Origin: Clostridiales bacterium
GTDB taxonomy: Bacteria; Bacillota; Clostridia; Oscillospirales; Acutalibacteraceae
Direction: 5' to 3'
Length of the DNA stretch: 59,114 bases
Assembly: GCA_021200555.1 (NCBI GenBank)
Contig: JAJQGK010000065.1
Span: forward strand, 1-59,114
Part shown: positions 48,005 to 59,114 of the stretch, in pieces
Position numbering within the stretch: position 1 is the stretch's first letter
Layout: every line of letters starts with the position of its first letter
Program-made: the position numbers and the translations under genes
Notes under the pieces: model-generated
The model's input: only the letters and a program-made list of their open reading frames with translations
Database searches by the model: none
What the model was told of the DNA's origin: nothing

Positions 48005-49171
48005 TCAAACATAAGGTCTGTCAATATTTATAACCGCAAAATAATTTTCTTTTTCATTTTTTATCTGCCGGGAAATTGTATTTTTGAGTTCATCGTCCGA
48101 CAGCTTCACGGTGTAGGGAACCACAATATCAAAAATCAAATTCGTATGAGTCTTGCCCGGAACTATTCTGAAATCGTGGATTGTAATGCTCTCGTCCGTC
48201 TGTTTTACAGCTCTTTCGGCTGTTTCCTTTGCGGCGGTCACATTTTCATTATCAGTCTCTATTGGGTCCATATGTATTACCGCAATACAGCCCAGCTCCT
48301 TTGACAGACGGTGTTCGGCGTTGTCTATCACATCATGAAGCTCAAAGATATCGTTTTTGCCGTCAACCTCAGCGTGAAGAGAAACCATAACCCGTCCCGG
48401 ACCGTAATCGTGAACCACAAGATCGTGAATGCCGATAATCTTGTCATAGGACATAACAATTTCTTCCACACTATCCACAAATTCTTTTTCCGGCGGAGAG
48501 CCCAAAAGAGGACTTACCGTATCTCTTGCGGAAACAATTCCCGCATAAATAATAAACAGGGACACGAGTATTCCGCAATATCCGTCTGCGTGGAAATCGG
48601 TAAAATATGCGATTACCGTTGAAACAAGAACGACAAAGGTTGCCGCAACATCACCCAAGCAGTCGATAGCCGTTGCCTTCATACCGGATGAATTGATTTT
48701 CTTGCCTATTTGCCGATTATAGTAAAACATATAACCCTTAACCAGAATTGAAAAAATCAAAATAACAAAGGAAATTACGCTTGTATCTATATCGGAAGGA
48801 TTTTTTATTTCATCAACGGAGGCGAGAAAAAGCTGTACGCCGACCACCACAATAATAACCGAAACGGCAAGGCCGGAAAGGTATTCCACTCTGCCGTGGC
48901 CGAAGGGATGGTTGGGATCCGGCTTTTTACCTGCCAATTTAAGTCCGACAAGAGTTATAACGGATGAGCCTGCATCCGAAAGATTGTTAAAGGCGTCTGC
49001 CGTAATGGCAATGGAACCGCTTAAAACTCCGGCAAAGTACTTTAAAGCGAAAAGAACGGCGTTCAAAACTATTCCCACAACGCAGCAAAGAGTGCCGTAG
49101 GATTGCAAAAGCTGATTTTTTGTCAGACCGTCGCTGTTCTTTATGAAAATTTTACTTAAAACCGTTATCAT
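48005..49171 (-). CDS. Cation diffusion facilitator (CDF) family transporter
   Basis: 388 residues, six membrane helices plus a cytoplasmic C-terminal domain. Metal-site motifs are ITADAFNNLSDAGSS and HPFGHGRVEYLSG, with IIGIHDLVVHDYGPGRVMVSLH in the C-domain. CDF proteins export Zn2+, Mn2+, Fe2+ or similar ions by proton exchange; the NNLSD and GHGRVE pattern suits a MntE/FieF-like exporter but selectivity is not certain. Its start overlaps the DUF2207 stop by 4 nt, so it is the last gene of the aspS operon. A ~70-residue C-terminal extension is present. Confidence 0.9.
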   Translation of the reverse strand: MITVLSKIFIKNSDGLTKNQLLQSYGTLCCVVGIVLNAVLFALKYFAGVLSGSIAITADAFNNLSDAGSSVITLVGLKLAGKKPDPNHPFGHGRVEYLSGLAVSVIIVVVGVQLFLASVDEIKNPSDIDTSVISFVILIFSILVKGYMFYYNRQIGKKINSSGMKATAIDCLGDVAATFVVLVSTVIAYFTDFHADGYCGILVSLFIIYAGIVSARDTVSPLLGSPPEKEFVDSVEEIVMSYDKIIGIHDLVVHDYGPGRVMVSLHAEVDGKNDIFELHDVIDNAEHRLSKELGCIAVIHMDPIETDNENVTAAKETAERAVKQTDESITIHDFRIVPGKTHTNLIFDIVVPYTVKLSDDELKNTISRQIKNEKENYFAVINIDRPYV

Positions 49172-50640
49172 CGCTTTTTATCCTTTTTATTATCGGCTTT
49201 ATTATCGGCGGCTGCTTTCCCCTCATCGTAAATTCTGCGGAGTGTAAAGAGATTTCTCGGATACTTGCTTTCGTCTGTTTCTATTTCTCCTCGAATTGCC
49301 TCCTCCGTAACGGACAGCAGCAAATCAAACACGGAGTATCTTTTTCTTGTGAAAAAGTCGTCTGATATTTCAACGGGACTTACCGTTTCATATCCCTCGG
49401 CGGCAAGCTTTATTTCAAAGCAGTGTCTTATAAGCTTTCTCTTTTTCGGCACAAGCTCCGCAAAGGGGGAAAATGTCTTGACTTTCTTGTTAAAGGAATT
49501 GACAAAATCGTAAAAATCCAATTCTCTTACGCCGTCTTTATTTTCGGAAAATTTGCGGACGAACTCAATGACGGCTTTTTCATGGGAGCAAAGCTTTCTT
49601 TTTACGGCGTCATTCTCAGATACAAGCTCGGCGTTAAAGCCATCCTTACCGGCTGTTATATACCCTCTTGAAATAAGCTCAAGAGCTGTAACGATAAACA
49701 TATCCGCCTTATTCAGAGTGTTTTTTAAGGTTGTTTTCATAATTTCGGCAGGGCTTATCTCGTAAAGCGCCGAGGACATTGTCTCATAGGACGACTCCTC
49801 TCTCGCTTTTTTTCTGCATCTGCGTTCCCAGCGTTTTCTGAAAATCTTTTTGTAATTTACAAAGTAAACAACGGCGGCGACAATAATGACAAATCCCGCC
49901 GCACCGCTTATTCCGGACGCTGTTTTTGCGGCGGTATAATCATCGACAATGTGAATTAGCGAGTCGGAGTCGAATATTTCCGACGGCATAGACAAGCCTA
50001 TTTTTATTCCGCCCATAGAGGTTACGCTTTTAAACACAACTCCGCTCTTTGATTTTTCGCCTGCAAGAGATCCGGACTCAATAATTGTAAAATCTTCGGG
50101 AAAGCACTCCTCCGGAACTGTTACGGAAATTGTAACGTTTCGGCAAAACAGTTCGCTGTCCTCATTGACAACATTGCAATAAAAATAAGCTCTGCCGTTA
50201 TATATTTTAACTGCTCCGGATTGAATATATCTCAGTGAGAACTCGTGAGTTTCGCTCTGTCCCTCCATATTCCAAAAAACAGAGTAAACATTATCCTCAT
50301 ATGAGTAGGAATATGTGCCGTCTGCGCCGTTTGACTCCTCCTCGGAGCAATTGTAGCCGTCGGCGGAAACGGACATATCGCTTATCCCTATTATATATTC
50401 AAAGTCGCTGTCCGATATAACTATGTTGCGGCTAAATCCTTCCGAACCGTCTTCGCCGTATGCAACCGTCCAATTTTCCGTAATAACCGCGCTGCCGTCA
50501 GACATAAGCTCGGCGGTATACTCAACGGACTCAACGCTGTAATCCTGATTTTCGGATGCGTCAACGGCTGCTGCCGGCAAAAAGCAAACCGACAACAGCA
50601 TTATAATCGCCGCTGCAAAAAAACTTACGGCTTTTTTCAT
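49168..50640 (-). CDS. DUF2207 predicted membrane protein
   Basis: 490 residues. Signal peptide, then an extracytoplasmic beta-rich DUF2207 domain (YTAELMSDGSAVITENW, SRNIVISDSDFEYIIGI), one membrane helix near residue 245 and a cytosolic basic domain (RKRWERRCRKKAREE) ending in Lys/Asp. The role of DUF2207 is unknown. Both ends overlap neighbours by 4 nt (gatB upstream, CDF downstream), so it is coupled to the tRNA-amidation operon although no functional link is evident. Confidence 0.85.
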   Translation of the reverse strand: MKKAVSFFAAAIIMLLSVCFLPAAAVDASENQDYSVESVEYTAELMSDGSAVITENWTVAYGEDGSEGFSRNIVISDSDFEYIIGISDMSVSADGYNCSEEESNGADGTYSYSYEDNVYSVFWNMEGQSETHEFSLRYIQSGAVKIYNGRAYFYCNVVNEDSELFCRNVTISVTVPEECFPEDFTIIESGSLAGEKSKSGVVFKSVTSMGGIKIGLSMPSEIFDSDSLIHIVDDYTAAKTASGISGAAGFVIIVAAVVYFVNYKKIFRKRWERRCRKKAREESSYETMSSALYEISPAEIMKTTLKNTLNKADMFIVTALELISRGYITAGKDGFNAELVSENDAVKRKLCSHEKAVIEFVRKFSENKDGVRELDFYDFVNSFNKKVKTFSPFAELVPKKRKLIRHCFEIKLAAEGYETVSPVEISDDFFTRKRYSVFDLLLSVTEEAIRGEIETDESKYPRNLFTLRRIYDEGKAAADNKADNKKDKKR

Positions 50641-52076
50641 TGCTTCAGGCTTTCAAGAGCTTCGGTCAGAAGCTTATCGATGAGAATGGGATTTCCTCTG
50701 CCTTGAGTTCTTCCCATAACCTGCCCCATAATAGCTTTGGCGGCTGCGGTTTTTCCCTTTTTGTAATCCTCAATCGACTTCGGATTTTTCTCAATCGCTT
50801 CTTTTATATAAGCTCTGAGTATACCTTCATCGTTTATCTGAGCCAAATCGTTGCGTTTTACGTATTCGGCTGCGTCCTCGTCATTTTCCCAAAGAGCCTT
50901 TACAACCTTTCTTGCAACGGAGCTGTTGATTTCTCCGCTTCCCTGCATTTGAGCAATCTGCGCCATATGCAACGGCTCTACCGTAATCTCTCCGTTTTCG
51001 GAATCGTACAGCTTCATAATTTCCGAAATTATAAGGTTTGCAAGGATTTTCGGGTATTCGGTATTTTTCGCCGCCTCTTCAAAATAATCGGCAGTAGACA
51101 AATCGTTTGTAATAAGCTCGGCGTCATAAGGAGTCAATCCGTACCTGCCAACATATACCTTTTTTCTCTCATCGGGAAGAGTCGGAATTGAATTTTTAAT
51201 CTCCTCCATCTTTGCCTTTGACGTTACGATGGGAGCCAAATCCGGATCGGGAAAATAACGGTAGTCGTTGGCGTCCTCTTTTTTACGCATGGAATAAGTC
51301 TTTCCGCTGTTTTGGTCGTAACGCCTTGTCTCCTGAACAATCGTACCGCCCTTTTCTATCTCCTCAACCTGTCTTTTATATTCATATTCGATTGCCTTTT
51401 GAATAAACGTAAACGAGTTAAGGTTTTTCATTTCCGTTCTCGTGCCGAATTTTTCCGCGCCTTTTTTTCTGACTGAAAGGTTTACGTCGCACCTCATGGA
51501 GCCTTCCTGCATTTTACAGTCGGAAATACCCGTATAAAGTATAATGGCGCGCAGCTTTTTAAAGTAGGCTATTGCCTCCTCGGCGCTTCTTATATCCGGC
51601 TCGGAAACTATCTCAATAAGCGGAACTCCGCAGCGGTTGCAGTCAACCATGGTGCCGTATTCGTCATTGTGGATAAGCTTCCCCGCATCCTCCTCGATAT
51701 GGATTCTGGTTATGCCTATTTTTTTTGCGCCGTTTTCGCCCTCAATCTCAAGCCATCCATGCTCGCAAAGAGGCAAATCATACTGTGAAATTTGGTATGC
51801 TTTGGGAAGGTCGGGATAAAAGTAATTTTTTCTGTCCTGCTTTGAAAACTCCGCTATTGTGCAATTTGTGGCAATTCCCGCTTTTATTGCATATTCGACA
51901 ACCTGCTTGTTGAGAACGGGAAGAGTTCCGGGCATTCCCATACAGACGGGGCAGCATTGAGTGTTTGGTTCTGCGCCGAATGTTGTGGGGCAGCCGCAGA
52001 AAATTTTTGTTTTGGTGCCGAGCTCGCAGTGGACCTCAAGCCCTATAACCATTTCATAATCTTTTATCATATTCAT
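50637..52076 (-). CDS. gatB: Asp/Glu-tRNA amidotransferase subunit B
   Basis: 479 residues. VIGLEVHCELGTKTKIFCGC, the zinc-site Cys around PNTQCCPVCMGMPGTLPVLN, and HIEEDAGKLIHN are conserved; the YqeY tail (GRTQGRGNPILIDKLL) is complete. GatB phosphorylates the side-chain carboxylate of Asp-tRNA(Asn) or Glu-tRNA(Gln) and hands it ammonia from GatA. SD AGGAGG seven bases before ATG. Follows gatA after 12 nt and overlaps DUF2207 by 4 nt. Confidence 0.97.
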   Translation of the reverse strand: MNMIKDYEMVIGLEVHCELGTKTKIFCGCPTTFGAEPNTQCCPVCMGMPGTLPVLNKQVVEYAIKAGIATNCTIAEFSKQDRKNYFYPDLPKAYQISQYDLPLCEHGWLEIEGENGAKKIGITRIHIEEDAGKLIHNDEYGTMVDCNRCGVPLIEIVSEPDIRSAEEAIAYFKKLRAIILYTGISDCKMQEGSMRCDVNLSVRKKGAEKFGTRTEMKNLNSFTFIQKAIEYEYKRQVEEIEKGGTIVQETRRYDQNSGKTYSMRKKEDANDYRYFPDPDLAPIVTSKAKMEEIKNSIPTLPDERKKVYVGRYGLTPYDAELITNDLSTADYFEEAAKNTEYPKILANLIISEIMKLYDSENGEITVEPLHMAQIAQMQGSGEINSSVARKVVKALWENDEDAAEYVKRNDLAQINDEGILRAYIKEAIEKNPKSIEDYKKGKTAAAKAIMGQVMGRTQGRGNPILIDKLLTEALESLKQ

Positions 52077-52088
52077 TTTCAGCCCTCC

Positions 52089-53525
52089 TTACCCTGCATA
52101 ATTTTCGTAAGCATAACCGGCTCTCAAAAGAGTGCTTTCGGAAAACGCTTTTCCTATAAGCTGCATACCTATGGGAAGTCCGTTTCCGTCCTTTCCGCAC
52201 GGCATTGACAGTCCGGGCAGTCCGGCAATATTAACGGGAACAGTATAAATGTCGCCTAAATACATTTCAACCGGATCTGCGGTTTTTTCTCCGATTTTAT
52301 ACGCCGTTGTGGGAGCTACGGGAGAGATGATAAAGTCGTGTTTTTCAAAAACCGAGTTAAAATCATTGATTATGAGAGTTCTCACCTGAAGAGCCTTTTT
52401 GTAATAGGCATCGTAATATCCCGAGGACAGCGCAAACGAACCCAGCATTATACGCCGCTTAACCTCTTTGCCGAATCCCTCGCTTCTTGTATTTTTATAA
52501 AAGTCGTCCATTTCCTCAAAATCGCCCTGAGCTCTGTAGCCGTAGCGAACGCCGTCAAACCTCGCAAGGTTGGATGACGCTTCCGATGAAGATATAACGT
52601 AATATGCAGGCAAAGCGTATTCCATAGCGGGAATTGACACCTCTTCGATTTCAGCGCCCATTTTCTCAAAGGCCTTCGCCGCATTCATAACGGCTTCCTT
52701 TATTTCCGGATGAATACCCTGTCCGAAATATTCCTTCGGCAAAGCGGCCTTCATGCCCTTTACTCCCATACCTATATCAGCCGTAAAATCGCCGTATTCC
52801 CTGTCAACGGATGTGGAGTCGAGAGGATCATGGCCGGCAATGGCGTTTAAGATGATTGCGGCATCCTCAACCGTTCTTGCAAGGGGACCGATTTGATCCA
52901 GGGAAGAGGCGAATGCCACAAGACCGTTTCTTGAAACGGTTCCGTAAGTCGGCTTCAGTCCCACAACCCCACAGAATGCGGCAGGCTGACGGATGGATCC
53001 GCCTGTGTCCGAGCCCAACGCAAAAGCCGTCTCTCCGGCTGCAACGGCAGCTGCCGAACCGCCGGACGAGCCTCCGGGGACGCAGGATGTGTCGCGGGGA
53101 TTTTTTGTGACATGGAACGCCGAATTTTCCGTAGTCGAACCCATGGCAAATTCGTCCATGTTCATTTTGCCCAGCATTACGGCATTTGCTTCCTGCATTT
53201 TCTTTGTTACAAAAGCGTCAAAGGGCGGAACAAAATTTTCAAGCATTTTTGAGGCGCAGGAGGTTATGCTCCCTCTTGTGCAGATATTGTCCTTCATACC
53301 GTAAGGAATACCGGTTAACGCCGCAGCACTGCCCTCGGCAATCGCTTTATCGGCATTTTCGGCCTGTTTTAAAGCCGCTTCCCGTGTAAGTCTGACAAAT
53401 GCCCCTATTTCATCGTCTGTATTCTCTATTTTGGAAAAATATTCTTCTGCGGCATCCACAGCGGAAATTTCCCTTTTGTGAAGCTTTTCCGACAGCTCCT
53501 TAACTGTTAAATCCGTAATATTCAT
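52089..53525 (-). CDS. gatA: Asp/Glu-tRNA amidotransferase subunit A
   Basis: 478 residues, amidase-signature enzyme. Lys of [12 protein letters not shown], cis-Ser and Ser nucleophile in [30 protein letters not shown]-type region (quoted core [15 protein letters not shown] and [11 protein letters not shown]). It releases ammonia from glutamine for GatB. It follows the aspS-gatC fusion after 23 nt, in place of the missing free-standing gatC, and precedes gatB. SD GGGGGAAA. Firm call. Confidence 0.97.
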
Positions 53526-53548: not shown

Positions 53549-55630
53549 TTATTCAAATGTTTTCGGAACGGTCATATATCCGTCCGCTTTTGTGGGAGCG
53601 TTTGACAAAAGCTCATCTCTGTTTGGCTTGTTTGTAACTTCGTCCTCTCTGAAAACATTGTTAATGGGAACGATATGAGCCGTTATCGGAACACCGTCCG
53701 TATTGATTTCCGCAAGTCTGTCCGCAAAATCGATAATAGCGGAAAGCTCGGTTTTCATGGACTTTTTCTCATCGGGAGTGAGCTTAAGCTTTGACAAATT
53801 TGCAACGGTATCAACATCAATATCGGCTTTTTTCTTCTTTTTGCCCTTTCCCTCTTTTTCATCATTATCTTGGAACTGCCCCAAATTTAAGGCCTCAAGC
53901 TGTTCCTTGTCAACGAAATCGGGAGCGCCCGTCATGGGACAAGAGGCGTCCTTGATTTTCGGGAAGGCTATAACCTCTCTTAAGGACTCTGCGCCGGTCA
54001 AAAGCATTACGAGCCTATCCAAGCCGAATGCAAAGCCCGCATGAGGAGGCGCGCCGTACTTAAAGGCATTTACCATAAAACCGAAACGGCTTTCAATCTG
54101 TTCATCGTCAAAGCCCAAGGCTTCAAACATTTTCGTCTGTACGTCGGGTCTGTGAATCCTTACCGAGCCGGATCCAAGCTCCACGCCGTTTAAAACAACG
54201 TCGTAAGCCTGAGCCCTTACTCTGCCCGGGTCGGTTAAAAGATATTGAATGTCCTCTTCATAGGGCATTGTAAAGGGATGATGAGCCGCCATAAAGCGGT
54301 TCTCCTCGTCGCTCCACTCGAATTGAGGGAAATCCGTCACGATAAGGAATTTATATTCATCGTCTTTTATAAGGTGCTGTATCTCGGCGACGTCAAGACG
54401 GAGAGCGCCCAGCACTCTTCTCACCGTTTTCAGCTTGTCGGCGCAAAACAGTATAAAATCTCCCTTTTCGGCTTTAACGGCTTTGATTATGGCATCGATG
54501 TCCTCCTGCTTAAAGAACTTGTTAAGCAAAGAATACACCTCGCCGTCCGGACGAATCATAATCCAAGCCATGCCCTTTGCCCCGTAGGAGAGAGCCTTTT
54601 CCGTAAGATTTTCGATAACGGTTCTGGTGAAGTCTGCGCCACCTTTGACGTTAATCGCTCTTACGACTCCGCCGTCGTCAACAGCCTTTCTGAATACGGA
54701 AAATGAGCATGTTTTCGCAATATCGCTTATATCGACTATAGGCAGCTCAAAACGCAGATCCGGCTTATCGCTGCCGTAAACATCCATACAATAGGTCCAC
54801 GTAAGGCGGGGAAAATCATATTTAATTTCGCTGCCCATTGTCTCCTTGAAAATGTACTTGAACAGCTTTTCAAGATGCTGCAAAACGTCCTCCTGATCCA
54901 CAAAGGACATTTCCATATCGACCTGAGTAAATTCCGGCTGGCGATCCGCTCTGAGATCCTCATCTCTAAAGCATCTCGCGACCTGATAATATTTGTCAAC
55001 TCCGCCCACCATAAGCATTTGCTTGAAAATCTGGGGTGATTGGGGCAGCGCATAAAAGGTCCCCGGATGAACCCTTGAGGGGACGAGATAATCTCTTGCG
55101 CCCTCCGGAGTGGATTTCATAAGCATAGGCGTTTCCACATATATAAAGCCGTCGTTGTCAAGGTAATCCTGAGTTACCTTCTGAACCTTGTGGCGGAATT
55201 TTAAGTTGTTTATCATAGGCTGACGGCGTAAATCAAGGAATCTGTATTTAAGCCTCAAATCCTCACGGACGTTTTCATCATCGTCAAGAGAAAAGGGCAA
55301 TGCTGCGGATGTGGAAATAAGCTCAATGTGATCCGCCATAAGCTCAACCGTTCCCGTTGCGATTTTCGGATTGACGGTTTCCTCATCTCTGAGCTTAATT
55401 TCTCCCTCAACAAGAATTACCGACTGATTTCTCAAATTCTCGGCAATATTAAATTCCTCTTCCTTTAAATTCTGAGCGTTGAACACAACCTGCAAAACGC
55501 CCTCACGGTCACGCAGGTCAACGAAAATAACGCCGCCCATATCCCGCTTTGTAAGCATCCAGCCGCAGCAAACGGCTCTTGAGCCTATGTCTTTTTCACG
55601 AACTTCTCCGCAATAAATTGTTCTCCGCAA
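53549..55630 (-). CDS. aspS-gatC: Fused aspartyl-tRNA synthetase and GatC (amidotransferase subunit C)
   Basis: 693 residues from a TTG at 55630 with GGGAG nine bases upstream, giving [16 protein letters not shown] as in other AspRS; the ATG five codons earlier has no site. Residues 1-~583 are a complete bacterial-type AspRS: OB-fold, class II motifs ([33 protein letters not shown]) and insertion domain. A Lys/Glu linker ([11 protein letters not shown]) leads to a full GatC at ~602-693 ([16 protein letters not shown]...[16 protein letters not shown]). With gatA and gatB next, one polypeptide both mischarges tRNA(Asn) with Asp and joins the amidotransferase: a covalent transamidosome. No separate gatC is present. 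AspRS is inferred to be non-discriminating. Confidence 0.95.
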
Positions 55631-55699
55631 ATTTATCACTCCCATTTGTTAAAATAATCTTCAAACACAAAAATAAGTCTATTTCATTATCCGTATCCG

Positions 55700-55738
55700 C
55701 TTAAAAATATTAAAGTCCCACGCCAAACAGCATGGGAC
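55700..55738 (-). terminator. T-box regulatory terminator
   Basis: GTCCCATGC pairs with GCGTGGGAC over TGTTTG (55738-55715), followed by TTTAATATTTTT. Mutually exclusive with the antiterminator formed by the T-box sequence. Confidence 0.9.
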
Positions 55739-55990
55739 GAAAATTTCTTCCGCGGTACCACCCAAATAAACGGCTCCCGCCGCTCACTCACGGATACGGT
55801 GTATATCCTGCGGCTGTAACGTACCGTAAACGGCTGAATCTACAGGCATTTTACGCCGAGACGGCAAATGCTTTCGGACAGCGGCTCAGGGATGTTCTTC
55901 ACTTAACGGCGGATACCGCTTTCCAGCTTCGGCGGCTCTCTGTAATCCGTAAAAATTAAGCTACTCTTCCCATCATTGCCTTTATTGAGT
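55700..55990 (-). promoter_or_regulatory. T-box riboswitch controlling the aspS-gatC/gatA/gatB operon
   Basis: The minus-strand leader has GATGGGAAGAGTAG (K-turn base), AGAGAGCCGCC and GCTGGAAAGCGG (distal stem I), a specifier region GTGAAGAACATCCCTGAGC, the T-box proper GGGTGGTACCGCGGAAG (55763-55747) and the terminator arm. The specifier can read AAC (Asn) or GAA (Glu) within GAAC at 55897-55894. Uncharged tRNA would favour the antiterminator and turn on the operon. The terminator is immediately followed by ~70 nt to the aspS start. Confidence 0.93.
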
Positions 55991-56004
55991 ATTTTATTGT
56001 ATAT

Positions 56005-56033
56005 ATTATATGCTGCAAATCGGGATTTGTCAA
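56005..56033 (-). promoter_or_regulatory. Promoter of the T-box/aspS operon
   Basis: Minus-strand TTGACA (56033-56028), 17-nt spacer, TATAAT (56010-56005). Confidence 0.8.
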
Positions 56034-58960: not shown

Positions 58961-59008
58961 GAATATTACAAAAATATTGATATAAAGGATAAAATTACAG
59001 TATTAGTG

Positions 59009-59064
59009 CTTGCTTGCTTGCTTGCTTGCTTGCTTGATTGCTTGGTGGATTGCTAGCTTGATTG
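59009..59064. repeat. Tetranucleotide tract (CTTG)7 followed by degenerate units
   Basis: Seven perfect CTTG units (59009-59036; CAAG on the gene strand) then ATTG CTTG GTGG ATTG CTAG CTTG ATTG. It lies ~125-180 nt upstream of the beta-helix start in its probable promoter or leader region. Beyond 59064 to the window end the DNA is AT-rich with no gene seen. Confidence 0.9.
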
Positions 59065-59114
59065 GTATATATGTTATTAATGTATAATTAATTTAATATT
59101 GAAATTATTTTATT

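Follow-up and report, generated by a model that had tools for sequence, protein, structure and literature searches.

The leader upstream of the amidation operon described here raises the question of whether one T-box can sense two tRNAs. When codons overlap in the bulge of a T-box, dual specificity is often inferred, and the present case tests that inference: in the analysed stretch of Clostridiales DNA (59,114 nucleotides, hereafter the window) the tetramer GAAC contains a triplet for glutamate (GAA) and, shifted by one base, a triplet for asparagine (AAC). The original prediction proposed that the switch responds to both tRNAs. Our sequence analysis argues that the leader is very probably a tRNA-Asn-specific T-box riboswitch of the transcriptional type, which would control aspS-gatC, gatA and gatB for the formation of Asn-tRNA-Asn.

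The leader lies on the minus strand. Positions 55985-55730 matched the T-box family RF00230 over the full model (1-219) with 112.4 bits and an E-value of 4.4e-24, compared with a curated gathering score of 93 bits. This match, which covers stems I, II and III and the antiterminator, is well outside chance expectation and bears out the assignment as a T-box. The range 55700-56033 fits the entire leader, which begins with the -35 box (56033) and whose terminator U-tract ends at 55703. A sigma-70-type promoter (TTGACA, 17 nt, TATAAT; 56033-56005) agrees with the consensus at 12 of 12 positions. The RF00230 alignment placed the 5' strand of the specifier loop, AGAGUA, at 55967-55962, in accordance with the comparison of 18 leaders, the antiterminator at 55763-55734 and, within it, the bulge UGGU, the pairing partner of the tRNA NCCA end, at 55760-55757. 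An intrinsic terminator with a 10-pair stem and a U-rich tail (55738-55703) overlaps the 3' arm of the antiterminator, and the two structures have the arm GUCCC in common. When stem I was folded alone, the expected helices were obtained, yet the result was not significant against shuffled sequences (z -0.43); the structure is therefore based on the covariance model and on covariation.

The gene order downstream of the leader, read directly from the minus strand, confirmed the predicted AspRS-GatC fusion and amidation operon: an aspS-gatC fusion of 698 amino acids (53549-55645) is followed by gatA (52089-53525; TIGR00132, 652 bits) and gatB (50637-52076; TIGR00133, 569 bits), the only GatB gene of the genome. 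The fusion protein combines an AspRS domain (TIGR00459, 763.5 bits, residues 7-588) with a GatC domain (TIGR00135, 85.8 bits, residues 609-698; PF02686). A second, discrete AspRS is encoded on C17; in it, RDLGSLIF takes the place of the fusion's RDMGGVIF, and the Leu form is typical of a discriminating AspRS. The end of gatB is overlapped by four bases by a gene for a DUF2207 membrane protein (49168-50640), which may share a transcript with the amidation genes. Near the contig end, a short tandem repeat of GCTT units (59005-59065) was observed upstream of a gene for a large repetitive secreted protein.

GatCAB amidates Asp-tRNA-Asn and Glu-tRNA-Gln; tRNA-Glu is not a substrate. The rationale that the pathway handles both sensed tRNAs thus fails, the more so as the genome encodes a GlnRS (TIGR00440, 769.5 bits), adjoining a GluRS, which makes GatCAB unneeded for glutamine. 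GlnRS was present in all 18 fusion-bearing genomes searched, so that this motive for a two-codon leader is missing throughout. A search for AsnRS in the genome yielded LysRS as sole full-length match. Because the assembly is a draft (143 contigs, 97% complete), the absence of AsnRS is less than certain, but it is supported by four other fusion-bearing genomes of the same genus, in which AsnRS was likewise not found. Overall, AsnRS occurred in 10 of the 18 fusion-bearing genomes and in none of the five within the genus. The two AsnB genes suggest that free asparagine can be obtained, yet without AsnRS it could not be loaded onto tRNA. Given a GlnRS, no AsnRS and a single GatB, GatCAB would be needed for asparagine only, and the operon should serve Asn-tRNA-Asn alone, which makes the sensing of tRNA-Asn a sensible regulatory logic. 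The Asn codon of the specifier matches an aspS-gatCAB operon in a genome without AsnRS.

The specifier region was located in the string GTGAAGAACATCCC (55902-55889), in which the letters GAAC stand at 55897-55894 as originally reported. On its 3' side the specifier loop reads GAA-G-AAC-A; the UCCC that comes next is paired with GGGA of the 5' side. The boundary of the bulge was derived from all orthologous fusion leaders that retain this type of stem I (n=18), in which the closing pair was A-U in 13, C-G in three, U-A in one and mismatched in one. Because these bases change as a pair, the bulge stops one base past AAC (GAA-N-AAC-A). In the TBDB, the standard frame is the triplet that occupies positions 2-4 counted from the bulge end, and shifted frames are given as alternatives (PMC7778990). 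In the leader at 55985-55730, the boundary obtained from covariation places a single codon, AAC (55896-55894), in this position, and the overlapping GAA (55897-55895) in the '-1' frame. The standard frame gave the right codon in all four other T-boxes of the genome: GUA for valS, CUC for leuA, GCC for alaS and UGG for trpE. In the valS T-box, GUA is likewise preceded by GAA-G, where the G is plainly no codon base.

The conservation of GAAC was assessed in orthologous operons that had been collected via the AspRS-GatC protein, so that the leader sequence was no selection criterion; the invariance of AAC was judged solely on these leaders. AAC was found in all 18, the leader of the window included, and together with the covarying closing pair this bears out AAC as the Asn specifier. 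The preceding base varied: G in 11 leaders, A in five (L110, L011, L264, L266, L267), C in one (L112) and U in one (L269). Variation occurs even within the genus of the window, to which the AAAC leader L110 and the CAAC leader L112 belong. Among additional fusion leaders, taken from named genomes, two carry G (L235, L249) and one carries U (L224); L187 is a duplicate of L270. In a phylogeny of 20 fusion proteins, the presence of G ahead of AAC required at least four independent changes, and inclusion of L110, which is absent from the tree, would add one more. In the fusion operons of L224 and L269 the leader appears to have been swapped for an unrelated-looking T-box with TAAC, UGGC and a stem I containing GAGAAAAGAGAAGTAAT. 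In L112, L047, L124, L125 and L126 the triplet one base ahead of AAC is CAA, a Gln codon that would fit tRNA-Gln, a genuine substrate of GatCAB; as the base ahead of AAC is so free, this is probably due to chance.

As a control, the GTDB genome collection was scanned for an AAC T-box pattern with any preceding base, which yielded at least 119 loci that were classed by similarity and length of the downstream gene. Since this set is conditioned on AAC, it informs only on the base ahead of it. Among the matches listed, G preceded AAC in 15 of 37 AsnRS, four of nine AsnA and five of 11 AsnB leaders, as compared with five of 17 AspRS, one of seven gatA, none of one gatC and three of four fusion leaders. 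GAAC was thus not enriched ahead of aspS and gat genes (9/29) relative to asnS, asnA and asnB (24/57; Fisher p=0.36, 86 leaders among the matches listed); leaders without conceivable interest in glutamate carry it equally often. The protein-found fusion leaders (11/18) did not differ significantly from the control among the matches listed either (p=0.18). In AspRS and gatA leaders of this set, U was the most frequent preceding base among the matches listed, and UAA is no sense codon. The presence of the overlapping tetramer at 55897-55894 would be expected for about 42% of AAC T-boxes among the matches listed and is, once a T-box has AAC, within chance expectation. With the base ahead of AAC nearly free across AAC T-boxes among the matches listed, GAAC alone is weak evidence.

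Two groups of leaders stood apart. At least 21 matches to the AAC pattern, from Planococcaceae and other taxa (among them L144, L152, L153 and L159), preceded hisS-like genes; among the matches listed, these mostly carry the rare bulge UGGA and a His codon, CAC, 1-2 bases downstream, and they were excluded as having another specificity. The other group comprises divergent T-box-like leaders (L047-L049, L051-L053, L055, L065 and, from the same genus, L124-L126 and L128) ahead of a second AspRS with about 40% identity. Those scanned reached 32-48 bits, under the Rfam cut-off of 93, and L124-L128 were judged by eye. In place of AGAGA, most of them carry AGGGAG or AGGGAA in stem I; they have UGGC as the bulge, and AAC is flanked by GG(G/C) on its 5' side and by CUUC or CUCU on its 3' side. 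They represent a poorly modelled T-box subtype.

A single bulge that recognises tRNA-Asn by AAC and, shifted by one base, tRNA-Glu by GAA, so that the operon answers both, has a published precedent: the two-codon (Asn/Glu) T-box of Clostridium acetobutylicum, mentioned in the original prediction, is described in PMC4052509. The acceptor ends are compatible with such a leader. The discriminator base is G73 in tRNA-Asn and tRNA-Gln of the genome and A73 in both tRNA-Glu; UGGU is predicted to form a Watson-Crick pair with A73 and only a G-U wobble with G73, although this bulge is common among T-boxes generally. Moreover, UGGU was found in 12 of 13 fusion leaders with G ahead of AAC, as compared with two of eight with another base (21 leaders; p=0.003, ignoring kinship). 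This association was dropped as evidence for dual specificity, as the alternative bulge UGGC occurs in one genus and in the replaced leaders, and as the link is absent from the wider AAC set (22/33 versus 39/53; p=0.63 among the matches listed).

Weighed against the invariant AAC and its freely varying neighbour, the missing enrichment and the presence of GlnRS, control by both tRNAs appears unlikely. A leader that senses tRNA-Glu solely or mainly would also find its triplet and a suitable bulge, but GAA is shifted by one base from the frame that is correct in the four other T-boxes of the genome and is missing from seven of the 18 orthologous leaders, which renders this reading hardly conceivable. 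It is similarly improbable, to the same degree as two-tRNA control in general, that dual specificity, with GAAC and UGGU, exists in this species and some relatives while others reverted to tRNA-Asn only; if true, these leaders would trace, as a natural series, how dual specificity was gained and lost. That this particular leader binds tRNA-Glu is conceivable by analogy with C. acetobutylicum (PMC4052509), but conservation, control set and pathway are all unsupportive, and the predicted sensing of tRNA-Glu found no support. The fusion clade, with GAAC, AAAC, CAAC and UAAC leaders on orthologous operons, offers a handy test set for the published two-codon claim.

Specificity for tRNA-Asn suggests the following mechanism, in which we infer tRNA binding, the direction of control and the charging of tRNA-Asn by the fused AspRS. 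Uncharged tRNA-Asn would pair through its anticodon GUU with the AAC of the stem I bulge and through its free GCCA end with the UGGU bulge. This pairing would stabilise the antiterminator over the terminator and permit transcription of aspS-gatC, gatA and gatB. The fused AspRS-GatC together with GatA and GatB would then make Asn-tRNA-Asn by charging with aspartate and subsequent amidation, presumably the sole route to this product in a genome without AsnRS. Most likely, then, a switch that responds to the build-up of uncharged asparagine tRNA turns on the only Asn-tRNA route of the bacterium.

The AspRS-GatC fusions of the NCBIfam family NF009460 have the same domain order as the protein described here, which scored 635 bits over residues 9-693, under the curated cut-off of 1379 bits, and is thus outside the exact equivalog. 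In the asnS, asnA and asnB leaders of Firmicutes, AAC occupies the same frame, with similar frequencies of G, U and A ahead of it among the matches listed; those leaders control direct charging with asparagine or its synthesis, whereas the present one would control amidation. In C. acetobutylicum, as here, a T-box with overlapping Asn and Glu triplets precedes an operon for AspRS and GatCAB. Saad et al. reportedly characterised this tRNA-Asn T-box of the aspS-gatCAB operon in 2012 and 2013. Unlike in C. acetobutylicum, AspRS and GatC are fused in the present genome, GatCAB is single-copy, GlnRS is present and relatives do not consistently retain the first base of the Glu triplet. The leader is best classed with a known kind, the tRNA-Asn T-boxes of aspS-gatCAB operons, with the fused AspRS-GatC as its local variation.
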